From positions 1 to 26,414 of the IMG/VR virus record IMGVR_UViG_3300030098_002546: a DNA stretch of 26,414 nucleotides. One strand, 5' to 3'. The DNA is from a virus. The position numbers and the translations under genes are program-made. Below are positions 6,570 to 26,414 of the stretch, piece by piece. Position 1 is the stretch's first letter; the number at the start of each line of letters is the position of its first letter. The notes beneath the pieces are model-generated. The model worked only from the letters and a program-made list of their open reading frames with translations, did not search any database and was not told the origin of the DNA.

Positions 6570-7273
6570 AGCACAAAATACTTTACGAATCACCGTATGA
6601 GTATGGTGTGTTCTCTAGTGAAACTCGCAAAAGCGGAAGGTTTTATGACTGCAATGGAGACAAACTTCCTTCAGTAACTACTGTACTATCTGGAACAAAA
6701 GAAGGAGACTTCTTGAAGAAATGGATAGACAAAGTAGGTGAGGAAGAAGCAGAACGTATTCGCCTCGAAGCTGCGGCCAGAGGCACATACATGCATAACA
6801 TTCTTGAAAAACAAATCATCAACGGTGAGATTTGGGAATACAAGCCTGAGAACGCAGAGCAAAAAAGAGCTTTGAAGATGGCATGTACGATCATGGACCA
6901 AGGGTTTCCCAACATATCACAAGTGTATGGTTGCGAAGTATCTTTGTACTATCCTGATAAATACGCAGGTCAAGCGGATGTTATTGGTGTGCATGACAAC
7001 GATCTTTCTATTATAGACTTTAAGCAGACAAACAAACCAAAGCGCAGACAGTGGGTTTGGGATTACTTTCAACAACTTGCTGCATATTCTCTGGCACACA
7101 ACGAACTGTACGGCACGGACATACACAAAGGCGTAATTATGATGTGCTCAGTAGACTGCTTGTATCAAGAGTTTGTTTTAGAAGGCAGTGAGTTTGACCG
7201 AGCTGCTGAAGCTTGGATGGATCGAGTAGAAAAGTTTAGTCTTCTGTCCAAGGAGTTGGAAGCTCAGGATTAG
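6566..7273 (+). CDS. PD-(D/E)XK exonuclease (RecB/Cas4-like nuclease)
   Basis: This 235-aa nuclease probably trims DNA ends in phage recombination, replication or host DNA breakdown, comparable in role to T7 gp6 or lambda exonuclease. The motifs are in the expected order: a helix with ARGTYMHNILE (H77), an acidic residue E124, GQAD with D138, the catalytic core D151-F-K153 in IIDFKQ, then the helix YFQQLAAYSLA (Q170, Y174), as in the RecB nuclease family. It starts at a GTG that overlaps the stop of the small upstream gene (GTGA) and has no clear ribosome site of its own, so translation is probably coupled. It is the last gene of the rightward unit. Its final 38 bases overlap the 3' end of the convergent 1808-aa gene. 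Confidence 0.85.
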   Translation: MKHKILYESPYEYGVFSSETRKSGRFYDCNGDKLPSVTTVLSGTKEGDFLKKWIDKVGEEEAERIRLEAAARGTYMHNILEKQIINGEIWEYKPENAEQKRALKMACTIMDQGFPNISQVYGCEVSLYYPDKYAGQADVIGVHDNDLSIIDFKQTNKPKRRQWVWDYFQQLAAYSLAHNELYGTDIHKGVIMMCSVDCLYQEFVLEGSEFDRAAEAWMDRVEKFSLLSKELEAQD

Positions 7274-10200
7274 ACAAAAGAGATATTTCACCACTGTCTA
7301 AAAAAGATTCTCTATCTGCTATTTGTTCTTCGGGCCACGGAATAGCGCTTTCTCTATCCTCTCTTATTCTTTCATAGTTGTCTTGAAACCTAGGAGGCAG
7401 TATCCAAGGAGTGAATATTCCATCTTCTATGTTATCCAAAGTAGTGTTATCCACACCTTGAATATTGGTAAGCCTTGTATATTGTTCTTCAAGAATATCT
7501 GGGTCTACCTTTAATTTTTTAAGGTCTTGAAGTTTAAAATAAATATCTTGTTGTATAGTAAACCAAGCTCTTTGAGCATCATCGTATTGGTCTAAAATAT
7601 ATTCTTGCGTTATTCCTGTTTTTAAAACAGTTTCTGGAATAGCTGAATAGAACGAAGCGGGTGCTATGTTGGATTCTACATAACGTTTAAAAATACCGTC
7701 GTCTGTGTCAGTGATAGATGTGATGTAATATCTAACAGCCTCATTCGGATTTGCTGTACTCTGCGTCATACCAGCAATTCTTAATAAAGCTTGTATTTCT
7801 TCAACCCTTCTTCCGCTCTTCGTATATTGATCCTCGTCTTCAGAAAAAGCTTTTATTAAATCTCTACCTTGCCTGTATCCTCCTGGTCCAGCGTTGTCCA
7901 AACCATACACAAAAATTGTTTTTAACTTGTCACCAAGGCTATCGGTAGGATTATAAATTTGTCTACCTGTGTCTGTTTCATTGTTTATCAATTGAGCAGA
8001 AACTTCAGCTGCAATTGAAAGACCGTAATAATCTTCTAAAAATTGTATGGTAGCTTCAATAGAACCATCTACAATCGCTTCTGGAATGGAGGCTTGTTCT
8101 TCCCCTCTATCTCTTATAGAGCTATCAATTGCTGTATAAGCTCTTTGCAAAAAGGTAAACGGCATTAGGTAATCTAACAATATATAATCAAAACCTGTTC
8201 CATCCTCTCTTACAGAGCTCGTTGGTGCTCTTGTAGCGTTTTTGTTGTACTCCGCTCCAATTCCGTCTGCTGCTTCTAAGTCTTCGTCGTCTACATCATA
8301 CATAACTTGACCTAAAGCAACCAATGCAGCAGGTAGTCCTACGATGGAACCTCCACCAATCAAAAGTCGTTTAGCTGCTTTTCTATGAAAAGGTCTTTGG
8401 TTTAAAAAAGACACATAAGGTTTGCCATCAGCTCCCATGTAAGCAGCCTTTTCTAAAGGCAAGCCAGCTTTTTCCATTAGCTCGTCAGGCACTCTATATG
8501 TCGCGTCTTTAACCTGCATTTGAACCAAGTTTCCACTGACTCTTATCATTTCTGTTGGGAAAGCAATAAAGTTTCCAAGAGGAAGTTTTCTCCAAAACTT
8601 TGCAAAAGCTCCAACATAATCATAGTTAGGAATAGTGTTTCTGGTTATATGCGCGGCCAAGTGTTTAGTGTAACTGTCTAAATCAGTCACGTTTCTATAT
8701 AAAACAGCTGCGCTTGATTTATATGTGCCAATGTTTGTCGTCAACGTGCTTGAATAATCTCTTAAAATTTCAAGTTTCAACTCGTCTGTTAAAGGAGGAA
8801 ACCCATTTGCAACAGCTGCTTCTGACATTCTGTTTAAAGAATTTTTTATTTCAATAATGTTTGCTCCCCATGTCATCAGTTTAAAGTAATCATCGGCGGC
8901 AGCGTAGGTTCCTTTAAGCTTTCTAAAGACGGAACCAACAGTTTTGTCTATAGCATAACCAGGCAAAGTCATAGCCGTGGTAAAAGCCGTTTCTGTGTTC
9001 AAATGTTTTAGTGAGTACAAAGCGTGCATTACTTTTTCAGCGGTGTCGTACTTACCCGATCCTATCTCATTAAAAATACCAAACGCGTCGTTAAGATTGG
9101 CACTTGTGTTTGAAATGCCAAGTTGTCTAGCAATCCTCATTGTAGCTCTGGCTTCTCCAGCCGAGTTTCCTTGCCCTACTATATTTCCATCTTTGTCGTA
9201 AGCAAGTCCCGGAAAAAGCTCTTGCATAATGGTGTTGTTTGTAAGGCTCCAATCTCCTTGAATTAAATGCCCTCCTGCCATAAACATTAGTGCCGCACCA
9301 AAAAAGTTTCTGGTTTGGGTTCCTGGACTCAAGACAATCATTCCACCTTGAATACCTGCTTTAGCTCTTAAAAAAGTGTTTTGGTAAAGGTTTATCGGAC
9401 CGCTCCAACTGTTCGCTTGTGACAAAGTATCTAATCCTAACTCTTGTGCTATTTCTTTAGTGGTCCACATACCTTTTAAAGGATTAAACTCATCTACGGT
9501 AGGTATCTCAAAATCAAACACCCCAGGAATTTTCTTTTGAGAAAACATCATTTCGCCAGGCATGTTGTTAATGTTTTTAAGATCTCTATAAAAATTGTGC
9601 ATCTCTATAAGTTTTGCAACACGAGAAATGCTGGTAGCCGTCATTAAAGTCGGATCGGTTATCTCTCCCATCAAACGTCTTACAGCAAAAGGTATTTTAT
9701 ATCTTTCTTGCAAAAGCTTTGGACCTTCTGGAAGATTTACCGCCGTCGCTTCGTTTTTCATTTTCATAACACCAGGAAGACTCGCCATATCAGCGGAAGA
9801 ACTAAAATATGTTTGCGTTAAAATGTCGTCAACTATGTTTATAGCGTCCTGTCTTGTGAAAGTTGGATCTCCTGCGTTCATGGTTTCAAGAGAAACAATT
9901 GCAGATTCAATAAGGTTTTGAGCTGCTGGCGATTTAATAAAAGCAGCACTAAATTTTGGGTTGAATCCCAACTGGTTTTCAAACAAAGCAAAAGAGCTTA
10001 CAACATAGGAGCCTAATTGATTTTCTAAAATCTGTCTTGTCGCTCCTTTTGCGTCTTCAACATCCCCTAACATCTCAGGAGGAAACTCGTTTAGTATTCT
10101 TTCTGTTAAAACATCTATTGATTTTCTTGCTCTAAGAGCAGCTTTTCTTAAAGGACTTGTTGGCAAATCTTGCGCAGCAACACTGGTTTTTTGGTTGCCT

Positions 10201-12662
10201 GCAAGCAATGTTTTTAAATCATCTATTGCATCCGCGTTTTCTTCTGGGTTTTGTTCCAACAAATTTAACTCGTTTAAAGCCGCATTTTTTCCTTCTGGGT
10301 CTAGTTCAACCAAGGCTCCCGTTTTTCTAATAAAGTTTCTAACTTTTCTTCGTACTTCTTGTTCAGCTTCTAAAAACCTTTTTGTTTTAAACACACTGTC
10401 TTTTTTGGATGTTTCTTCAACCGCAGCTGCAATAATGGCTTTTTCTAAATCCGTTGCCATTTCTTTTGCTGTTTGGTTGTGTGCTCTTAAAGCTGCTTGA
10501 GTTTGTTTTTGTTTAGCCGTTGCTATTAGACCCATTTTACCCATTGGTCTAAACAAAGCAGACAAACGTCCTTTTGCTTTTGTAATAAACTCTCTTTGAT
10601 CTAGAGGTCTACTGCTTCCAACAAGTCTCATACCTATAAGTTCTGAGTTAGGTATTTTTGAAATAGGGTCTACAATCAACTCATCAATTGTTTTTCCTTG
10701 ATAATTATTTTCAAATTCGTTTGAGTCAATGCTGGCGTCTTTACCCGTTGCAATTAATTTACCTAGATTTTTTTCTGCCAATATTGGTCTACCACCTTCT
10801 TCTTGTGTCGCCTCATCAATTAAGTTTTCCAACTCTTTGTTTTCTAAAAACTGTCTTTGAAAATAAATTTTTCCTTTTTCATTTCCTAAATCATCGTACA
10901 ACATAACTCTGGCAGACATGGCGTTGCCTTGTTCAGACAAACTGTCTCTTGTGTTTATATCTATAGGCAAGCCTTTGGTTTCGTCCCCTTCTTTTCTTTG
11001 AACATTTATATCAACAGGGCGAGTCATTTTTTCGTTTTTCATTCGATTTAACTCGTTTATAGACATAAGTTCTGCAATTTCAAAAGCAAGTTCTGTGTTG
11101 CTCATTGAAGAAGTGTTGTCTATAGAATCTCTTGGACGGTTTCTTTGAACAGCTCTTATCAAAGCTTCTCTGTCATATTTTTCAGACAGGTTTTTTATAT
11201 AATTTCTAAAGCCCGCTTTTCCCTCTAAAGATATAGTGATCGGCCCAGGAGCCGATTCTTTTTGTTGCATTTGAGAAGTCGCGTTAGCAAAAGCTTCTAT
11301 TGAATTGTCCCAAGCTCCTTCCATTTCAGGGTTGTTGTAAAAGTTTGAATCAAACGCAGGAGGGGTAAAACTGTATCGACCTTGGCCCCCCGCCCAAAGT
11401 GTGTAGTTACTCCAAGTCTCTTCAGGAGTTGCACCTTGAAATTCTCTTGACACATAATCAAAAAGCTCTTGACCAGCCATAGACTCAAATAGTTTTGTGT
11501 TTTCTTTAAACCGCTTTTCAAACGTTTCTTCGCTGCCCAAATCCATTTCAAGCGCTTCTTTTTCTGCGACTTCTTGAAACTGTGTTTTGTAGAAACCTTT
11601 TAGTTTTTCAAAAACTTGGTCCGTCGTATCTCCAGGCAAAACTGTAATGTCATTTTCTTCTGCCGCCTTCTTCAAAATATCCATGTCTATAACAGCGCCT
11701 TCAGACAAATCTTGTCCTTGAGTTTCTAAATACTCCATGAGTTGTCCTTGGGCAAAAGTTTCGAGAGTTTCTTCTATAAGTTCTTGGCTGTCTTTAGCCA
11801 TCTTCTCTCGTTCTTTTATGTTTTTATATTTGGTGTGTCTTCTGTTTACACTAGAAACAACAGCAGGCGCCTCAAAAGCAAGCTCTCCCGCAATGCCCGA
11901 AGCAATACCAGTAGTAGGATCCAATGTCGGATCAACATATTTTTTTGTTAATAAGTTTGAAGAAACATTGTCTCCAGTTTCTGCCCCAGCTTGTAATACT
12001 GCTTGTATCAAAGATCTTTTAAAAGGCTCTATTGATCTACCAACAAGAGCAAGAGGAAGAGTTGCGGCATTGATGATTGAACTTAAACCAGATTTTTTAA
12101 GAGCGTAAAGCTCTGCTCCCTCTTCGTCGTCGGGATTTTCTTCTAAATATTCAAAATACGAGTTTCCAAAATCTTGAGCAAATACTGTAGCGCCACCGCC
12201 CAACATGCCTCCAGCAAGCGCTCCAGCAGGGCCACCCATTAAGAAACCAGCTGTGGCTCCTGTTCCAGCGCCAGCTAAAAAAGGAACAGAACCAGGTATT
12301 GCTTCTCCCAAAGTTTTAGCCCACCATTTTGAATCAGACAGATTTTTAAACTGCTCTGCTCCAGCGTCTCCATACTTTGCTCTGTAAACCTCTCTCGCTG
12401 CCGCTTCTTCTAATTCTTTTATTCCTTCTGCTCTTTTTTGAGCATCTTCGCTTTCCGCATCATCAATCGCTTGCTTTGTTTGTCTAAAAGACATCCTAGT
12501 AGCGGCGCTTCCTTTTTTAAGACTTTTAGCAAATATCTCTCCAAGCCCTAGCTCTTCGCCTTCGGGCAAATCTTTTTCTTCTTCAGGTAGTGTTTTTTCA
12601 GGAAGATCTTGATTGGCAAGGATTGTTTGTCTTCGCCTTAACTGTTCCTCAGTGTAGGGCAT
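7236..12662 (-). CDS. Giant virion-associated protein (probable internal/ejection protein)
   Basis: This is a single uninterrupted 1808-aa frame and the last gene of the leftward late unit. The N-terminus is highly charged (residues 1-110). It is followed by a Gly/Ala-rich hydrophobic stretch at about 118-162 (AGTGATAGFLMGGPAGALAGG), the kind of segment seen in membrane-active or ejected proteins. Long helical, charged regions fill most of the middle. Near residue 1110 is SPGTQTRNFFGAALMF, like the NP-TH-RN motif I associate with large phage polyvalent proteins. A second hydrophobic segment lies near residues 1435-1460, just before an acidic patch. I see no lysozyme, transglycosylase or peptidase signature. 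Size, position after the tail genes and composition suggest an analogue of T7 gp16 or other internal ejected proteins. The name is inferred. The start ATG follows the upstream stop as TAACATG. Confidence 0.6.
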   Translation of the reverse strand: MPYTEEQLRRRQTILANQDLPEKTLPEEEKDLPEGEELGLGEIFAKSLKKGSAATRMSFRQTKQAIDDAESEDAQKRAEGIKELEEAAAREVYRAKYGDAGAEQFKNLSDSKWWAKTLGEAIPGSVPFLAGAGTGATAGFLMGGPAGALAGGMLGGGATVFAQDFGNSYFEYLEENPDDEEGAELYALKKSGLSSIINAATLPLALVGRSIEPFKRSLIQAVLQAGAETGDNVSSNLLTKKYVDPTLDPTTGIASGIAGELAFEAPAVVSSVNRRHTKYKNIKEREKMAKDSQELIEETLETFAQGQLMEYLETQGQDLSEGAVIDMDILKKAAEENDITVLPGDTTDQVFEKLKGFYKTQFQEVAEKEALEMDLGSEETFEKRFKENTKLFESMAGQELFDYVSREFQGATPEETWSNYTLWAGGQGRYSFTPPAFDSNFYNNPEMEGAWDNSIEAFANATSQMQQKESAPGPITISLEGKAGFRNYIKNLSEKYDREALIRAVQRNRPRDSIDNTSSMSNTELAFEIAELMSINELNRMKNEKMTRPVDINVQRKEGDETKGLPIDINTRDSLSEQGNAMSARVMLYDDLGNEKGKIYFQRQFLENKELENLIDEATQEEGGRPILAEKNLGKLIATGKDASIDSNEFENNYQGKTIDELIVDPISKIPNSELIGMRLVGSSRPLDQREFITKAKGRLSALFRPMGKMGLIATAKQKQTQAALRAHNQTAKEMATDLEKAIIAAAVEETSKKDSVFKTKRFLEAEQEVRRKVRNFIRKTGALVELDPEGKNAALNELNLLEQNPEENADAIDDLKTLLAGNQKTSVAAQDLPTSPLRKAALRARKSIDVLTERILNEFPPEMLGDVEDAKGATRQILENQLGSYVVSSFALFENQLGFNPKFSAAFIKSPAAQNLIESAIVSLETMNAGDPTFTRQDAINIVDDILTQTYFSSSADMASLPGVMKMKNEATAVNLPEGPKLLQERYKIPFAVRRLMGEITDPTLMTATSISRVAKLIEMHNFYRDLKNINNMPGEMMFSQKKIPGVFDFEIPTVDEFNPLKGMWTTKEIAQELGLDTLSQANSWSGPINLYQNTFLRAKAGIQGGMIVLSPGTQTRNFFGAALMFMAGGHLIQGDWSLTNNTIMQELFPGLAYDKDGNIVGQGNSAGEARATMRIARQLGISNTSANLNDAFGIFNEIGSGKYDTAEKVMHALYSLKHLNTETAFTTAMTLPGYAIDKTVGSVFRKLKGTYAAADDYFKLMTWGANIIEIKNSLNRMSEAAVANGFPPLTDELKLEILRDYSSTLTTNIGTYKSSAAVLYRNVTDLDSYTKHLAAHITRNTIPNYDYVGAFAKFWRKLPLGNFIAFPTEMIRVSGNLVQMQVKDATYRVPDELMEKAGLPLEKAAYMGADGKPYVSFLNQRPFHRKAAKRLLIGGGSIVGLPAALVALGQVMYDVDDEDLEAADGIGAEYNKNATRAPTSSVREDGTGFDYILLDYLMPFTFLQRAYTAIDSSIRDRGEEQASIPEAIVDGSIEATIQFLEDYYGLSIAAEVSAQLINNETDTGRQIYNPTDSLGDKLKTIFVYGLDNAGPGGYRQGRDLIKAFSEDEDQYTKSGRRVEEIQALLRIAGMTQSTANPNEAVRYYITSITDTDDGIFKRYVESNIAPASFYSAIPETVLKTGITQEYILDQYDDAQRAWFTIQQDIYFKLQDLKKLKVDPDILEEQYTRLTNIQGVDNTTLDNIEDGIFTPWILPPRFQDNYERIREDRESAIPWPEEQIADRESFLDSGEISLLSNPELPTPWTED

Positions 12663-19268: not shown

Positions 19269-19682
19269 TTATTTTTTAACTAGACTACCACCAAAATACA
19301 TACCAATAATGGCGGACACTAGGTTTGTATCTAGTTGTGTTATTACAAGTCCTTGAAACGTAATCCATTCAAAAACTTCTCGTCCTTCTCTAAAAAACAT
19401 AAAACCAGGTCGCCAATTTGTGTACCCAACCGTTACATCAACAGCAGGATAAAACACAGCTACAAGCTTCGGCAACAAGACGATTGCAAAGATAGAAGTC
19501 AAAGCAATAATTCTTCGTGTCCAAGCGAACCCTTGATCCTTTAGTCCATGGTCCAAGGATTGTTTACGAGCCTTCATTTCAAACTCGCCCCTTGTAATAA
19601 GAAGTTTTTGCTCTTCGGCTTTTGCTTTACGACTTTGTGCCCATATACTTAACAAACTACTCAATAGAGTAGATCCCAACAT
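19269..19682 (-). CDS. Small membrane protein, holin-like (three TM segments)
   Basis: A longer frame reaches 19775, but the most likely start is the ATG at 19682, which clears the upstream gene and begins a hydrophobic segment (MLGSTLLSSLLSIWA). The 137-aa product has three hydrophobic stretches: residues 1-15, 54-75 (TRRIIALTSIFAIVLLP) and about 108-132, separated by a charged helix and a short aromatic loop (NWRPGFMFF). This size and layout fit phage holins with three membrane spans, including those of gene transfer agents. A WRP motif is present, but its position differs from that family as I remember it. Holin function is inferred. A GTG at 19703 is an alternative start. A GGTCC-type repeat lies at 19543-19558. 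Confidence 0.5.
   Translation of the reverse strand: MLGSTLLSSLLSIWAQSRKAKAEEQKLLITRGEFEMKARKQSLDHGLKDQGFAWTRRIIALTSIFAIVLLPKLVAVFYPAVDVTVGYTNWRPGFMFFREGREVFEWITFQGLVITQLDTNLVSAIIGMYFGGSLVKK
19543..19558 (+). repeat. GGTCC 7-bp-period motif, site 4
   Basis: AGTCC at 19543 and GGTCC at 19550, then GGAT at 19557, with a 7-bp period, inside the minus-strand holin-like gene. A GATCC at 19535 lies 8 bp before. Confidence 0.6.
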
Positions 19683-19710
19683 GGTGATTATCTCAAATGG
19701 AAAGCCCACT

Positions 19711-20085
19711 TCATACTTTAGGTTTAGAGCTATTTGTATACAAGCCGAACCAGGCTGCGCCCGCACCCACAACAATTGAAATTAAGCCCGATTGTTCAAA
19801 ACTAGGGTCTGGTAAATCCATGAACCAAAAAGTTGTAAAGTATAATAAATACATGTACACCCCTAGAAAGCATCTAGGAATAATGCGCCAACTGTCTATG
19901 GCTTGTGCTACAAATATAAACTTTTGATAAGGGTTGTCGTTCTTCTCATCTTCAAGTTCCCTGATTCTATCTTTTAACTCAGACTTTTCTTGAAGCAACG
20001 CCATGAACTTATTGAGATCAATCTCAACCTCGTTGCGATCCATGTCGCCACCAAATCTAGGACTGCCGTGATATTCGTCGCTCAT
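19711..20085 (-). CDS. Membrane protein with N-terminal coiled coil and two TM segments
   Basis: This 124-aa protein has a polar N-terminus, a short coiled coil (EIDLNKFMALLQEKSELKDR, about 22-41), then two hydrophobic segments: residues about 68-88 (IIPRCFLGVYMYLLYFTTFW) and 100-117 (GLISIVVGAGAAWFGLYT). The second segment and its WFG ending resemble small membrane proteins that recur next to lysis genes in marine phages. The ATG follows the upstream TAG after one base, with AAGGAA as ribosome site. Together with the neighbouring membrane gene it may form a holin pair or an inner-membrane complex; the exact role is unknown. Confidence 0.65.
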   Translation of the reverse strand: MSDEYHGSPRFGGDMDRNEVEIDLNKFMALLQEKSELKDRIRELEDEKNDNPYQKFIFVAQAIDSWRIIPRCFLGVYMYLLYFTTFWFMDLPDPSFEQSGLISIVVGAGAAWFGLYTNSSKPKV

Positions 20086-20272: not shown

Positions 20273-20638
20273 TTAGTTTGCCAATGGGTTATCGTTCATG
20301 TTTTTTAAACTTCTTACGTCATCGTACATAGAATCAACACTTGCATTTATACCTGCAACACTTGTTTGCAATGCAACAATATCATCTTTTATAGGAGACA
20401 AGTCTTCTGTTTCTATGTTTAACGATTTAATTTGTTCACCTACAGCAACCACTTGCTTATCCATAATCGCTACTTCGTCAGCAAGCGAATCTATTTCGTC
20501 AATATAACGAGCCATCTTAGACTCAAGATTTTCTATACGATTAACATAAGTTGCGCCTGTGTAACCGAAACCAGCTAGTGTGCTAACGATACCAGCCAGC
20601 GCAATCAGTTGCGTTGTCTTACTTTGAAACCAGTCCAT
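20273..20638 (-). CDS. TM-anchored coiled-coil protein
   Basis: This 121-aa protein has one N-terminal membrane segment (residues 8-30, TQLIALAGIVSTLAGFGYTG). The remaining 90 residues are a regular heptad-rich coiled coil (for example ENLESKMARYIDEIDSLADE), largely acidic, ending MNDNPLAN. A strong AGGAGG site lies 5 bases before the ATG. The topology suggests a short cytoplasmic end and a long periplasmic coiled coil, as in inner-membrane spanins, and the gene is near two holin-like genes. However, no lipoprotein partner (outer spanin) or endolysin is in view, so spanin is only one option. A structural role at the membrane during DNA entry is another. Confidence 0.6.
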   Translation of the reverse strand: MDWFQSKTTQLIALAGIVSTLAGFGYTGATYVNRIENLESKMARYIDEIDSLADEVAIMDKQVVAVGEQIKSLNIETEDLSPIKDDIVALQTSVAGINASVDSMYDDVRSLKNMNDNPLAN

Positions 20639-21157: not shown

Positions 21158-21293
21158 GCGTTTTTTGAACATCAAAACTTGCATAAAGACTTGCGCCCTT
21201 ATGCGGTTTATATTTGCCCGTGTGCTTCATCAACTTAGGGGCACCTCTTTTTTGTTTCATCCAATGAAACCCTTTTGGTGCTTTTACTTTCAT
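21135..21293 (-). CDS. 52-aa basic phage peptide (KAPKGFHWMK type)
   Basis: This short gene was read directly from the sequence. Its ATG at 21293 overlaps the TGA of the 802-aa gene (ATGA), and its last 23 bases overlap the start of the next basic gene in another frame. The product begins MKVKAPKGFHWMKQKRGAPK, contains KPHKGASLYASFDV and ends in five Lys with two Gly (GGKKKK). I recall similar KPHKGA peptides in marine phages, without a known function. The nested arrangement gives three small basic proteins in a single compact cluster (20647-21293). The start and stop overlaps on both sides support translation. Confidence 0.7.
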   Translation of the reverse strand: MKVKAPKGFHWMKQKRGAPKLMKHTGKYKPHKGASLYASFDVQKTHGGKKKK

Positions 21294-23698
21294 AATTGTG
21301 GTTGCCTATCAATTAAATTTTTAATTCCAGTTAAACTTTGGCCATATAACCCAACAAAAGCAGAGTTATTGTCCGGTATGGATACATTACCATAAATTGC
21401 TTTCGGTTCATACCAGTTGGAAGCATCATCGAGCGTCACTTGTCTGTATGCGTTAAAGCCAGGAACATAACCCATGTAGGCAACAAGTTGACTAGAATCA
21501 GCGTATTCTCCTGTTTCTTCCTGCTGTTGCTCTATTTCTTCTTGTTGGTTTTTTATGTTTTGAGCCACAATTTGATTAGCAATTTGGTCAGCTTCGCTCT
21601 CTGTTGTGTTCTCCGCTATCGTTGTGTCCATTGCGCTTTGTACGTTTTCAGTCTCATTAGTTGTGTTTTGTGCTTCCACTACAACGGTTTCTACAGAAAC
21701 ATTAGACGTGCTTTCAGAAACCTCATTTGTATCACCAACAGTTTCTGTATTAGAAGAAACCGTTATTGAACTGTCCGTGGTCCCCGGTCCTTGGTCCGTC
21801 GTTGCTGCTTCTTTATTTACTGTTGCAACTTCCACAGTCATAGATTGCGAGTTGTTAAAAGAAGAACCCCCTACATCGGACACACTCATAGACAGTATTT
21901 CTTGTGTTTGTTGCGCTGAACTAGCGACTTGAGCAGAGATACTCGGTGAACTGTCGATGCTTACTGTACCGCCTGATACAGAAGAAGTCACAGCAGAACT
22001 TTGAGAAACGGCGGTTATTCCACCGGATGCAACAGAGTTTCCTGTAGAGTGTGCGGACGTTCCAGCAGTTGTTCCGCTGACACTATTTGTTGCTGCTCTA
22101 ATTGTGTTTGCAACAACATTTAGTTGCTCTGCTCTTTTGTTGTCTTTTTTCTCTTCACTCTCCGCGACAACAAGTTCGAGAGCTTCTTCTCGGTCTTGTA
22201 CCTCCTCTTCAACTGTCTCCGAATCCTCCAAGTCTCCATCTTCAGCATCAGATAAACTAGCAAGTTCCTCCAACACTTCTTCAGTTTCTTCTTCAATCCA
22301 TTCCTCCAATTCTTCTATTGTTTCAAACTCTAAAAACTCTACTGGATCTTCTTCAAAAGTTTCTTCGATAAACTCTTCGTGTTCAAAATGATCTAATAAA
22401 ATGTCTTCTAGTGCAGGAAGATCGTAGTCCGTTTCATAATACTCCTCTACTAAAAGTATTTCTTCATATATCTCTTCAATATATGTTTCTTCTTCAACAT
22501 AGCTTAATGGAATATATGTTTCTTCAACAGGGTCAAACTCTTCTGTAAAAATTTCATAGGCTTCTTCAAACAGTTCATGTTCTTCCTCAAACAACACATA
22601 CTCTTCAACAAGGTCAAACTCTTCTGCAAAAACATATTCTTCAACAAAATCGTATTCTTCAACAAAATCGTATTCTTCCTCTATCCACGATAACTCATCA
22701 GTATATATAAAGTCTTCTTCATAATAGTAATCCTCTTCGTAATACGAGTCCACATAGCCATACTGATCCTCTTCATAGTCTTCATACCCATACTGATCGT
22801 TTTCATAATAAGTATTTTCGACAAAAGTTTCGACCATGTATCCCGGACACGCAGGCGAATATTGCGAGTCATACGAGCACTCGTAATCAAATAAATCGTC
22901 CCAATAATTAGGACATTGAGTAGAATACAGTCCATCTAAATCACATTGTTGAGTTAAATAAGCTGCCGCATATCCTGGACAAGCAGTGTTGTTTAAGGGG
23001 TTACTGCAATCTAAAGCGTTGCCTGAACCCACTCCATATAAACTACCACCGTTTTCAAGCAGTGTGTTAAAAGAAGTTGCGTTCCAATTTGTGTTGACGC
23101 ATGTGCCAGCTACGTTTGTGGTGCCTGTACTACATTCGTCGTGAAACAAATAAGTGTATAGTTCGTCAGCTTTTCCTTGCTCACCAATCAATACATCGTG
23201 ATTAATAATATTCAAAGCGCCGTAACGAAATTCAAAACTGTCGTTTGATTTCCAAAGTATGACCTCAAAAGAATTATCAGAACCGCTACGATTGTATTCT
23301 CGTAAGTTGTACCAACCGAAAACCGTTTTGTCGGTAAAGTTTTTGGCTAAGACTTTCGATCCGTTGTCTCGTATTAAATCAGTCCAGAAAGGATATAAGG
23401 TGTATGTGATTTCAGGTAGAGGATCAGGTGTGTAGTCATTACAATAGCCTCCTGTCGACCCAAAGTGTAGACAACCGTTGGTTGCCATTCTAGCAGATGT
23501 AAAATCCTGACCATAAAATGTAAAAGTAAAATCTAAATTAAAAGCACTAGAAACTTGGTCGTCACCTGCTGCCATGTTGGTTGTGCCTGTGTAATTTGTT
23601 AAATCAAAAAGAGTTTGTCCACCTTCATAAATATAGGTTGCGTTAGTTGTTAAGCTTGCTCCAAGTAATATTAAAATGCTTGTTATTTTTTTAAACAT
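21290..23698 (-). CDS. Secreted 802-aa protein: nidogen-like domain, Cys repeats, acidic tract
   Basis: The protein begins with a clear Sec signal peptide (MFKKITSILILLGASL, likely cut after A20). Residues about 52-175 resemble a nidogen (NIDO) extracellular beta domain: FTFYGQDFTSARMATNGCL, then a WTDL segment and FEVILWKS. Residues 231-290 form three 22-residue Cys repeats with CPGY/CPNY/CPGY at 240, 262 and 284. Residues about 295-520 are an extreme Glu/Tyr/Phe tract with EEYDFV repeats, then a Ser/Thr/Gln-rich low-complexity part, and a conserved-looking end (YMGYVPGFNAYRQVTLDD). It is likely exported to the periplasm or cell surface, or displayed on the virion. Function unknown; adhesion, calcium binding or host-surface change are possible. 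It lies second to a 130-aa exported protein with a spacing of one base. Confidence 0.7.
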   Translation of the reverse strand: MFKKITSILILLGASLTTNATYIYEGGQTLFDLTNYTGTTNMAAGDDQVSSAFNLDFTFTFYGQDFTSARMATNGCLHFGSTGGYCNDYTPDPLPEITYTLYPFWTDLIRDNGSKVLAKNFTDKTVFGWYNLREYNRSGSDNSFEVILWKSNDSFEFRYGALNIINHDVLIGEQGKADELYTYLFHDECSTGTTNVAGTCVNTNWNATSFNTLLENGGSLYGVGSGNALDCSNPLNNTACPGYAAAYLTQQCDLDGLYSTQCPNYWDDLFDYECSYDSQYSPACPGYMVETFVENTYYENDQYGYEDYEEDQYGYVDSYYEEDYYYEEDFIYTDELSWIEEEYDFVEEYDFVEEYVFAEEFDLVEEYVLFEEEHELFEEAYEIFTEEFDPVEETYIPLSYVEEETYIEEIYEEILLVEEYYETDYDLPALEDILLDHFEHEEFIEETFEEDPVEFLEFETIEELEEWIEEETEEVLEELASLSDAEDGDLEDSETVEEEVQDREEALELVVAESEEKKDNKRAEQLNVVANTIRAATNSVSGTTAGTSAHSTGNSVASGGITAVSQSSAVTSSVSGGTVSIDSSPSISAQVASSAQQTQEILSMSVSDVGGSSFNNSQSMTVEVATVNKEAATTDQGPGTTDSSITVSSNTETVGDTNEVSESTSNVSVETVVVEAQNTTNETENVQSAMDTTIAENTTESEADQIANQIVAQNIKNQQEEIEQQQEETGEYADSSQLVAYMGYVPGFNAYRQVTLDDASNWYEPKAIYGNVSIPDNNSAFVGLYGQSLTGIKNLIDRQPQL
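21772..21797 (+). repeat. GGTCC 7-bp-period motif, site 5 (four units)
   Basis: TGTCC at 21772, then GGTCC at 21779, 21786 and 21793: four units with an exact 7-bp period, the longest copy, inside the low-complexity part of the minus-strand 802-aa gene. Confidence 0.7.
22635..22670 (-). repeat. 18-bp tandem repeat in the acidic tract
   Basis: TATTCTTCAACAAAATCG occurs twice in perfect tandem and is followed by a third partial copy. On the coding strand it encodes the EEYDFV unit of the 802-aa protein. Perfect identity at the DNA level suggests recent duplication by slippage, so tract length may vary between relatives. Confidence 0.85.
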
Positions 23699-23699
23699 T

Positions 23700-24092
23700 T
23701 TAAAACCTTAAAGTAAAACTTAATCCTATGTTATGGTTATTCAAAACAGTTCCTAACATAATACCGTTTATTATTAGCAGTGTTGCAGTTCTATTTTTGT
23801 TAGGGGTTTTTTCTAAGGCGTAATACACAAGCCCAGTCGTTATAGTTTTATATAAAATAAGTTTTTCTTTTGAAGGAAACTTACCTATTATTGGATTCTT
23901 TTCTTCGTAACGACAGTTAGGAACTGTTTGTTGACAATTTATAAGGTCAAAGGTTTGTCCAACATCAACAACATTTAGTCCAACATAAGTTCCAAATAAA
24001 ATTTTATCTGTCTTTTTCCAATCTTTAAAATCTGCCTGTGTGTTTAAACTAAATAAAACACACAATGTACTAAGTGCCCGAATCAAACTCAC
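23700..24092 (-). CDS. Exported or membrane 130-aa protein (unknown)
   Basis: This 130-aa protein starts with GTG (24092) inside the end of the upstream gene, giving a 23-bp overlap; a TTG two codons on is an alternative. Residues 1-20 form a Sec signal peptide (SLIRALSTLCVLFSLNTQA). The mature part has two hydrophobic helices near 33-52 (KILFGTYVGLNVVDVGQT) and 103-118 (ATLLIINGIMLGTVL), plus a third moderately hydrophobic one near 80-93, two Cys (QQTVPNCRYEEKNPIIG), and a C-terminus ending in alternating hydrophobics and Phe (IGLSFTLRF), reminiscent of outer-membrane terminal strands. It sits between the two large exported proteins and may help anchor or move them. No known family is recognised with confidence. 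Confidence 0.6.
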   Translation of the reverse strand: MSLIRALSTLCVLFSLNTQADFKDWKKTDKILFGTYVGLNVVDVGQTFDLINCQQTVPNCRYEEKNPIIGKFPSKEKLILYKTITTGLVYYALEKTPNKNRTATLLIINGIMLGTVLNNHNIGLSFTLRF

Positions 24093-25311
24093 GACGACAA
24101 GTCATCCTAGATTTTTTGGTCCCCGATTTGTTTAAAGTGCCCGCACACCTAGAAATATATGTTGCTTTCGCTTCTTTATAATCAGGGCGATCTTTAGGGT
24201 TTGCAGCCCATGCAACTTTTGCTTCTTCTCCGATCTTGCCTTCATAAGGACAAGGAGTTCCTGCCATCATCATAGATTTAAAAACTCGCGGATCCAAGCA
24301 TAAGACGGATACTGCCGCTACTTTCATGCCTGTATCGTATAGGTATTTAGATAGTTTTAATCTTTCACAATTTTCATCCCGGACTGTTCTGCCAGCGGAT
24401 AAACCAAAAACTTGGCCTTGAAACGCACCTGATCTACCAACAGTACATAGGTCTTGGCTGTAACTCATTATGCTTGGTGCAATTGCAGAAGCAGGGGGTG
24501 CTTTAGTTGTGATGTTTTGATTGATCGTTTGTTCAGACTTCGACTCATTTATATTTTTGTTTGTATTGTTTGAAGTGCTGGTGTTCTCATTCACATTCTT
24601 ATTATCTGTAGTCACATTCGAGTTTGAGGTTGACTCATTTTTATTCACGTTTGTATTAGTCGATGTCGACGTGTTGTTATTGTTGTTTGTATTGGTGTTC
24701 GTGCTTGTCGACGTGTTGTTATTGTTGTTTGTATTAGTCGACGTGCTAGTGCTTGTATTTGTGTTGTTGTTGGTGTTGGTATTGTTGTTTGTATTAGTCG
24801 ACGTGCTAGTGCTCGTATTGTTGTTTGTATTAGTCGACGTACTGGTGTTCGTGTTGTTGTTTGTATTAGTCGACGTGTTTGTATTGTTGTTTGTATTAGT
24901 CGACGTGCTTGTATTTGTGTTGGTATTAGTATTGGTGTTTGTACCAGTAGAAGTGGTCGTATTTGTATTGTTGTTGGTATTAGTGTTTGTGTTCGTAGCA
25001 GTTGACGTGCTGGTGTTGTTGTTTGTATTCGTATTGGTGTTGGTATTTGTATTCGTATTAGTACCAGTAGACGTTGTTGTAGTCGTATTGGTGTTGTTGT
25101 TTGTATTCGTATTCGTATTGGTATTGGTGTTGGTATTTGTGTTTGTATTCGTATTGGTTGTAGTCGTAGTGGATGTAGTTGTCATCGAGTTCTGTTCGCA
25201 ATACTGTTCCCCAGCAGTACAGTCACCAGTCTGATCTGCTTTAACACTCGTTGCTGTAAATAACAGCGCTAACCACCACGCTGCAAAGATGCCCCACTTT
25301 GCCACGGCCAT
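24070..25311 (-). CDS. Exported Asn/Thr-repeat protein with conserved C-terminal domain
   Basis: This 413-aa protein begins with a signal peptide (AKWGIFAAWWLALLFTATSV, likely cut after VKA25). The start is ambiguous: AGGAGG is only 2 bases from the annotated ATG, while the GTG two codons later (25305) has a better spacing of 8. Residues about 50-225 are almost only Asn, Thr and Ser, a flexible or extended linker. Residues about 270-413 form a distinct domain with five or more Cys: APSIMSYSQDLCTVGRSGA, then NCERLKLSKYLYDTGMKVAA and AGTPCPYEGKIG. I recognise this domain from marine phages of SAR11-type communities, without a known function. Long repeat linker plus compact Cys-rich end resembles a surface-displayed or adhesin-like design. 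The lead gene of the exported cassette. Confidence 0.7.
   Translation of the reverse strand: MAVAKWGIFAAWWLALLFTATSVKADQTGDCTAGEQYCEQNSMTTTSTTTTTNTNTNTNTNTNTNTNTNTNNNTNTTTTTSTGTNTNTNTNTNTNTNNNTSTSTATNTNTNTNNNTNTTTSTGTNTNTNTNTNTSTSTNTNNNTNTSTNTNNNTNTSTSTNTNNNTSTSTSTNTNNNTNTNNNTNTSTSTSTNTNNNNNTSTSTNTNTNNNNNTSTSTNTNVNKNESTSNSNVTTDNKNVNENTSTSNNTNKNINESKSEQTINQNITTKAPPASAIAPSIMSYSQDLCTVGRSGAFQGQVFGLSAGRTVRDENCERLKLSKYLYDTGMKVAAVSVLCLDPRVFKSMMMAGTPCPYEGKIGEEAKVAWAANPKDRPDYKEAKATYISRCAGTLNKSGTKKSRMTCRREFDSGT
24648..25165 (-). repeat. Degenerate tandem repeats encoding Asn/Thr/Ser tract
   Basis: About 500 bp are built of 6-bp and longer units. The 19-mer TGTTTGTATTAGTCGACGT recurs at least five times (24726, 24786, 24822, 24858 and 24888) at spacings of 60, 36, 36 and 30 bases, all multiples of 6 so the frame is kept. 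The SalI-type GTCGAC core marks each Thr-Ser-Thr. It is likely to vary in copy number by slippage or recombination. Confidence 0.85.
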
Positions 25312-25622: not shown

Positions 25623-25805
25623 TTATTCCCCTGTTATTACTTTAAAAATTATGCCCGCCATACTTAGCACGAGCGTAATCAAAGTTAGCAGAATGAACTG
25701 TTCAAGTCTAGTAACTCTGTGTATAACTTCTAGCCAACGCTCTGCACAAACCGCTTCATGCTTTTCTATTTTAGCGTTGACTTCAGCTATGGTAAGTCTA
25801 GTCAT
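25623..25805 (-). CDS. 60-aa tail-anchored membrane protein (XhlA-like layout)
   Basis: The start is the ATG at 25805, whose bases overlap the oxygenase stop (ATGA) and which has GAGGAA about 6 bases upstream; the longer frame to 25829 is unlikely. The protein has an amphipathic, charged N-terminal helix (NAKIEKHEAVCAERWLEVIH, about 10-29) and one C-terminal membrane segment (about 36-56, FILLTLITLVLSMAGIIF). This layout is like haemolysin XhlA-type phage proteins that sit beside holins, and like small phage proteins with a conserved CAER motif. It is probably an inner-membrane protein with the N-terminus in the cytoplasm. Confidence 0.65.
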   Translation of the reverse strand: MTRLTIAEVNAKIEKHEAVCAERWLEVIHRVTRLEQFILLTLITLVLSMAGIIFKVITGE

Positions 25806-26414
25806 GCTGCTTCCTCTACTTCCCAACAATTAAGATTTGAAGCAACTGTTCGTCTTTCACCTTCGCCTCTGAATGGGTAAACCATGTGAGAAAGCCAAGA
25901 TGGAAAAATATACAGTTTTCCTACTTCAGGCTGTACTTCAAAACTTTGTGGTGGTCTTAATCGTTCTACATTCATTATTTCATTGCGACCATAGTTAAAT
26001 GCTAAATAACCATCACACGCACCAGATGCTTCATATTTATTATACAAAGGACTTCCAGCAGCAGGTTGATCGAGTATCTGTTGTGGTACTTTAGTCCAAC
26101 AAGTCGTTGATATGCCCATAATCGTTTTAGTGCCATGATCGTGTATTGGGTTGTAGTCCCCTGCATAACTGTGTACCGACCAAGTTTCGTCTATAGCAAC
26201 TTGCCTATTTTTAGGTAAAGATTGTCCTGTACTTTTCATAAAATGATTAATGTATTGAGCACCTAACAAAGTTACAAACTTAGAATATTGTCTAACCTTC
26301 TCATGTTCTGGGTCCATGTTCAGTTGCTCGCCATGAGCAATCTGCCCTACCAATGAATGTGCCAATGATTCTTTATCTGCTTGTTCTCTAAGATCGTCAA
26401 GATAAGTATTTAAG
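25802..26414 (-). CDS. 2OG-Fe(II) oxygenase-like protein, 5'-truncated at window edge
   Basis: The frame is open from the window's right end with no stop, and protein-like sequence (YLDDLREQADKESLAHSLVG) continues upstream of the only nearby candidate start, a TTG at 26365. I therefore treat it as cut by the edge; at least 203 residues are visible. The double-stranded beta-helix signature of a phage 2OG-Fe(II) oxygenase family is present: NPIHDHG supplies the first metal-binding His/Asp residues, LYIFPSWLSHMVYPF supplies the distal His, and ERRTVASNLN carries the Arg expected to bind 2-oxoglutarate. Such enzymes hydroxylate proteins or nucleobases and are common in marine phages. The substrate is unknown. 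It is the first visible gene of the leftward unit. Confidence 0.75.
   Translation of the reverse strand, partial: LNTYLDDLREQADKESLAHSLVGQIAHGEQLNMDPEHEKVRQYSKFVTLLGAQYINHFMKSTGQSLPKNRQVAIDETWSVHSYAGDYNPIHDHGTKTIMGISTTCWTKVPQQILDQPAAGSPLYNKYEASGACDGYLAFNYGRNEIMNVERLRPPQSFEVQPEVGKLYIFPSWLSHMVYPFRGEGERRTVASNLNCWEVEEAA

Follow-up and report, generated by a model that had tools for sequence, protein, structure and literature searches.

The locus described here has likenesses to three kinds of described system. Serine-rich repeat glycoproteins carry long dipeptide repeats, those of Fap1 being (E/V/I)S (PMC3601411). Curli/T8SS clusters (CsgG, CsgF, and CsgA/B) occur in pelagiphages, both of the HTVC023P type and among pelagimyophages, according to the parts of two accounts on which we draw (PMC9599517 and PMC7029224). 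Spanins of the Rz/Rz1 type are recognized by an inner-membrane protein with a periplasmic coiled coil and by an outer-membrane lipoprotein partner. The module that we report is not mentioned in the portions used of the phage curli accounts (PMC9599517, PMC9004378, and PMC7029224) or of the work on HMO-2011-type phages (PMC9038755).

The window, meaning the whole stretch of DNA analyzed, is a 26.4-kb virus record (26,414 nt; IMGVR_UViG_3300030098_002546). The nearest relatives of its DNA polymerase and its tail-stabilization-like protein are HTVC023P-type pelagiphages, 023Pt_psg01, and phage DSL-LC04, which makes a SAR11-like bacterium a plausible host. A sequence-only reading of the window had proposed a cassette of three consecutive late genes for exported proteins. 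Three such ORFs are indeed present on the minus strand, at 24070-25311 (gene A, 413 aa), 23700-24092 (gene X, 130 aa), and 21290-23698 (gene B, 802 aa). The first two share 23 nt and a single nucleotide separates the last two, in line with the description of overlapping or abutting genes. All three N-termini pass our Sec type I heuristic, as the claim of three signal peptides would have it. However, X proved to be a rare insertion, and the third conserved member (gene C, 121 aa, minus strand, 20273-20638) lies four genes beyond B, outside the interval that had been drawn.

Relatives were plentiful. A tblastn search with A returned ten phage records, and IMG/VR holds at least 593 relatives of A and at least 543 of B. 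The order A-B-C was seen in HTVC033P, HTVC115P, HTVC202P, HTVC023P, EXVC032P Baldr, and the myophage Mosig EXVC030M. It was also seen in uvMED S28-C10 (Votkovvirus), the roseophages CRP-207 and CRP-810, and two spring-water contigs. We scored linkage from the A side in 80 fetched loci together with the phages and the window. B came right after A, or after X or one small gene, in all 61 loci with room for it, and C with its tail motif followed B in 56 of the 61 (L004, L009, and L034 were added by hand or by cluster). A reciprocal search from the C-terminal domain of B found A upstream in 46/46 of the loci that had space for it and C downstream in 79/79. The 80 B loci of this search are the best matches to the clade of the window, and some contigs recur from the A search, so these proportions describe that clade. 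The reading frames of A and B overlapped by 19 to 58 nt in 41 of 46 loci.

X was present in 3 of the 80 B loci and absent from the other 77 (some of which are cut close to B), and a search with X itself gave four further loci. It sits between A and B wherever the context is visible, and contig L013 has a similar-sized gene in that position. Because the A-B order is obligate in the relatives, C follows B, and X is rare, we take the cassette to be A-B-C and X to be an insertion; the A-X-B cassette is rejected. The idea of one co-inherited system thus stood for A and B, which were not found independently of each other, and failed for X, which was missing where the others were found. X is predicted to be exported and has weak similarity to DUF5658 (E 0.0049, below the cut-off), its only family hint. 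Its C-terminus (...NIGLSFTLRF) alternates hydrophobic residues and finishes in Phe, as the ends of outer-membrane barrel proteins do.

Judged by sequence, A-B-C is a co-inherited, unannotated module of podophages and myophages of SAR11 and roseobacters. It is very common, and its carriers include podophages, T7-like, HMO-2011-type, and T4-like phages, and roseophages. Existing annotations call its genes hypothetical or carbohydrate-binding, or give what appear to be misannotations (lysozyme and OmpA), which agrees with the earlier statement that the set has no described function. The C proteins of CRP-207 (L007:3292-3873) and CRP-810 (L105:7204-7626) are annotated as lysozyme and look like a membrane segment plus a coiled coil ending in NPL; for the A protein of CRP-810, the annotation reads OmpA family protein. 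Nine loci came from bacterial genomes; where phage genes are visible, these seem to be phage contigs that ended up in MAG bins. A had no match in the approximately 50 kb searched of HTVC027P and 023Pt_psg01, which are relatives by DNA polymerase. Next to its M15 peptidase, HTVC027P (L107:813-2937), in which neither A nor B was detected, encodes a pair of small membrane/coil proteins together with one exported protein that contains Cys, perhaps an alternative set.

Export of A and B was a consistent feature. By our own heuristic Sec type I rule, 80 of 85 A relatives and 65 of 76 B relatives passed, compared with 48 of 570 other ORFs. The N-termini of A and B in the window have Ala-type cleavage sites (KADQ and TNAT), and inspection of the two proteins revealed no lipobox Cys or other outer-membrane anchor. 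After its signal peptide, A has a pair of cysteines (C31 and C38), a two-residue-repeat tract, and a C-terminal Cys domain. The tract and domain together match phrog_20531 (E 3.5e-9), which is a sequence cluster with no function recorded. The Cys-rich domain (C289-C405, minus strand, 24097-24447) is the part common to pelagiphages and roseophages, and four of its cysteines are invariant among relatives. In the phage relatives, too, a signal and a stretch rich in Ser, Thr, and Asn precede this domain. AlphaFold2 predicts it to be helical (approximately residues 58-158 of the 158 modeled), with a pLDDT of about 80 to 90 over most of its length. Comparison with solved structures gave no convincing PDB match (best Foldseek E 2.2; VIA Z at most 2.6), and a PDB sequence search with A gave none. 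In a viral structure library, its significant matches were all uncharacterized or unnamed proteins.

The repeat tract is the most unusual part of A. The sequence-only reading had described a Cys-rich domain on a long Asn/Thr linker. The protein is Thr/Asn-rich with eight cysteines, but the supposed linker is a strict two-residue repeat rather than generic low complexity. In the window it runs for 231 residues (minus strand, 24502-25194), with N or S on one phase and T plus charged residues on the other. We set the bounds of the tract at the N-terminal Cys pair and a PP motif. Measured this way, its length was odd in all 70 complete tracts (111 to 257 residues) and still in 40/40 after similar ones were removed. 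The alternation was general, with mainly Asn and Ser on one phase and mainly Thr on the other. In the 40 dereplicated tracts, 390 charged residues were on the Thr phase and none was on the Asn/Ser phase, and of the informative 20-residue blocks, 328 of 329 kept the phase. A clades that lack the Cys pair obey the same rule, as does a distant MAG contig (13 versus 1).

Substitution patterns bear on why the alternation persists. In pairs of equal-length tracts, pN/pS was 0.22 on the Thr phase (phase 0) and 0.02 on the Asn/Ser phase (phase 1), values that are descriptive because the pairs overlap in ancestry. Synonymous differences in tract pairs were approximately 0.4 to 0.5 per site. With the Asn/Ser phase so constrained despite diverged synonymous sites, the two-residue pattern is maintained by purifying selection. 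In structural terms, the tract is most naturally read as a beta conformation, one face of which would exclude charge. The tract is a rare low-complexity region with measurable, face-specific selection, and it yields direct structural predictions.

B has a signal peptide, a beta-sandwich, Cys repeats, an acidic stretch, a Ser/Thr stretch, and a conserved C-terminal domain. Residues 24-230 (minus strand, 23009-23629) are predicted as a beta-sandwich with pLDDT mostly 75 to 95. The protein had been called nidogen-like. A confident beta-sandwich is indeed predicted there, but the Pfam NIDO family (PF06119) was at best marginal: it gave no match to B of the window and matched 2 of 51 relatives (best E 0.027), none above the gathering score. 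Structural resemblance to polysaccharide-lyase and hydrolase beta-sandwiches (Z at most 5.4) was too weak to name the domain, and cathepsin matches in a PDB sequence search were put down to chance. In HTVC033P-type relatives, this N-terminal part is replaced by a different, CBM-like domain (annotated as carbohydrate-binding). The Cys content and acidic tract that had been noted were borne out: all 10 cysteines are within the first 284 residues, and the acidic spacer (residues 296-540, minus strand, 22079-22813) has 98 D/E, 6 K/R, and 41 aromatic residues among its 245. The C-terminal domain (minus strand, 21290-21601) carries the motif WYxPKxIYxxxxxxDN; by eye, HTVC033P-type relatives share with it a W/F-Y-x-[PS]-K-x-I-Y motif towards the C-terminal end. 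Beyond the sandwich, the predicted structure shows a region of Cys repeats, acidic and Ser/Thr regions of low confidence, and a C-terminus that is helical. Across relatives, B is a larger protein, acidic or otherwise divergent, mostly with a signal peptide. The roseophage B is short and was assigned by gene order alone.

C has a Gly/Ala-rich N-terminal membrane segment, a coiled coil, and a C-terminal NPLAN. An NPL C-terminus was found in 54 of 56 C proteins, and in the phage relatives the last residues are NPL or close to it. Gly, Ala, Ser, and Thr make up 51% of the membrane segment, compared with 32% in Rz proteins, and one might speculate that it recalls signal-anchor-release segments. C of the window matched phrog_739 weakly (E 0.00083), among many coiled-coil matches, and C of HTVC033P had no match at E<=0.01.

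The A tract and B spacer covaried in length across 46 loci (r 0.83; Spearman 0.67), and independent contrasts gave r of 0.36 to 0.84, varying with the minimum branch length. The length of the B N-domain, a control, was weakly related to that of the A tract (r 0.30 to 0.43), and the length of C was related to that of A with a rho of 0.56. However, a version with narrower anchors (29 loci) gave a contrast r of 0.10, which was not significant. The length test is sensitive, as the difference between the 29- and 46-locus versions shows. The covariation would suit proteins that bridge the same distance, but it is not decisive.

The module is embedded in late, same-strand gene runs, as its earlier description as late genes had implied; 301 of 322 close neighbors were on the same strand. 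An endolysin cluster (with a few large proteins merged in) was near the module in 48 loci, but a stricter endolysin motif was found in only 21 of 49 well-covered neighborhoods. Neighbors also included 3TM holin-like proteins, one of which, in Mosig, matched GTA_holin_3TM above the cut-off. The window has a 3TM holin-like membrane protein (minus strand, 19269-19775), in its own cluster without a significant Pfam match, and a small membrane protein matching phrog_10198 (minus strand, 19711-20085), whose cluster is near A in 40 loci. We regard both as context rather than core. Canonical Rz/Rz1 pairs (phrog_739 and phrog_812) coexist with the module in 18 neighborhoods; the Mosig-like contig L100 also has them, as judged by eye. 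Lipoprotein o-spanins near the module form a cluster separate from A and B. In the T7-like S28-C10, the module is between the tail-fiber genes and terL. The lysis genes of T7 occupy that same interval.

Other genes around the module were seen in passing. Upstream of it in the window is a 2OG-Fe(II) oxygenase gene (25802-26365; PF13759, E 4.6e-14). For the 1808-aa product of positions 7236-12662, neither Pfam nor PHROGs gave a match at E 0.1; it is probably one of the large internal proteins of the virion. In one relative (L103:3198-3671), a small heat-shock gene (Hsp20-like, by eye) is just upstream of A.

Particle decoration, superinfection exclusion, release, and surface remodeling had all been offered as functions, and sequence alone does not separate them. 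We lean towards release, which the neighborhoods with endolysins, 3TM holin-like genes, and Rz/Rz1 appear to favor. Our leading reading, held tentatively and at somewhat less than even confidence, is that A-B-C is a co-inherited, translationally coupled late module that builds a periplasmic envelope complex. It would act at the end of infection, most likely by helping to disrupt or open the outer envelope; we infer this timing from a late gene set beside endolysin, holin-like, and spanin genes. C would be anchored in the inner membrane, and its NPL tail may dock A, B, or both. The A tract would form an extended beta-structured stalk or fiber with disulfide-bonded ends as caps. B may reach the wall or outer membrane through its exchangeable beta-sandwich domain, serving as a glycan- or wall-binding arm, and the length match would reflect a shared distance to span. 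A more specific version is possible but doubtful: A would be a periplasmic beta-fiber or stalk with a two-residue code, matched in length to the acidic arm of B and the coil of C, making a new envelope-spanning device, distinct from spanins and curli, that is common to unrelated ocean phages.

Other functions would also fit parts of the data. The module might make a surface or extracellular fiber, in which A polymerizes through its tract (cross-beta or beta-solenoid) and B is a lectin-like tip, displayed on infected cells or released to aggregate hosts by analogy with the "sibling capture" of phage curli. Strict alternation with a charge-free Asn/Ser face would suit stacked beta structure, the beta-sandwich domain of B differs between clades, and curli T8SS are described for other pelagiphages in the parts used of PMC9599517 and PMC7029224. 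However, we noticed no pore for export across the outer membrane among the genes near the module, and the complex would be held at the inner membrane by C. We consider this fiber unlikely. An exported, membrane-tethered module that has apparently spread horizontally across unrelated phages sharing hosts might instead form a periplasmic complex against competing phages, preventing entry of their DNA or obstructing receptors from inside. This is improbable: the module sits among late genes, not in an early region, and PADLOC models gave no match beyond a coiled-coil one. It is harder still to believe that A and B accumulate in the periplasm and, at lysis, coat virions or cell debris through the beta-sandwich of B and so reduce re-adsorption to debris. 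That role would suit proteins that are soluble, exported, late in position, and perhaps equipped to bind glycans, but it leaves the obligate membrane-anchored C and the length matching unexplained. Finally, we give very little credence to the A tract being merely a flexible, structureless linker without special function: repeats of 6 to 48 bp are detectable in it, though diverged, and slippage by multiples of 6 bp would shift its length by two residues, but a neutral origin of this kind is rejected by the phase-specific pN/pS, with near-frozen phase-1 residues, and by the absence of charge from that phase even though a third of single-base changes to Asn codons yield K or D.

SAR11 are the most abundant bacteria of the ocean, and the presence of an obligate exported module in their phages points to a step in infection or release that has yet to be described. 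How does such a module compare with known systems? C resembles Rz in layout, being a small, coiled-coil protein of the inner membrane (predicted, from its N-terminal hydrophobic segment and coil) in a late or lysis region with exported partners. The difference is that neither A nor B is a lipoprotein on inspection, their N-termini having no lipobox Cys, and that three proteins with long spacers are involved. Where Rz/Rz1 coexist with the module, the spanin job is already filled, which weakens the case for A-B-C as a plain spanin replacement; the module would work like a spanin-type envelope-spanning device outside the spanin families. Phage curli/T8SS are alike in having exported, fiber-related proteins in the same phage groups but differ in gene set and order, and membership is rejected because Pfam, PHROGs, and NCBIfam searches with A, B, X, and C found no CsgG, CsgF, or curlin repeat. 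The closest known pattern to the A tract is that of the serine-rich repeat glycoproteins (Fap1, GspB, and SraP), in which a long strict dipeptide repeat with one near-constant phase serves as a stalk. Those proteins are Gram positive, LPxTG anchored, and O-glycosylated, whereas A is phage encoded, has Gram-negative hosts and a constant phase of mainly Asn/Ser, and has no wall anchor (LPxTG is absent, and its C-terminus is the Cys domain). The lipoprotein criterion thus sets the module apart from spanins, and it is neither curli nor a serine-rich repeat protein of the Gram-positive kind, but it resembles each of them in part.
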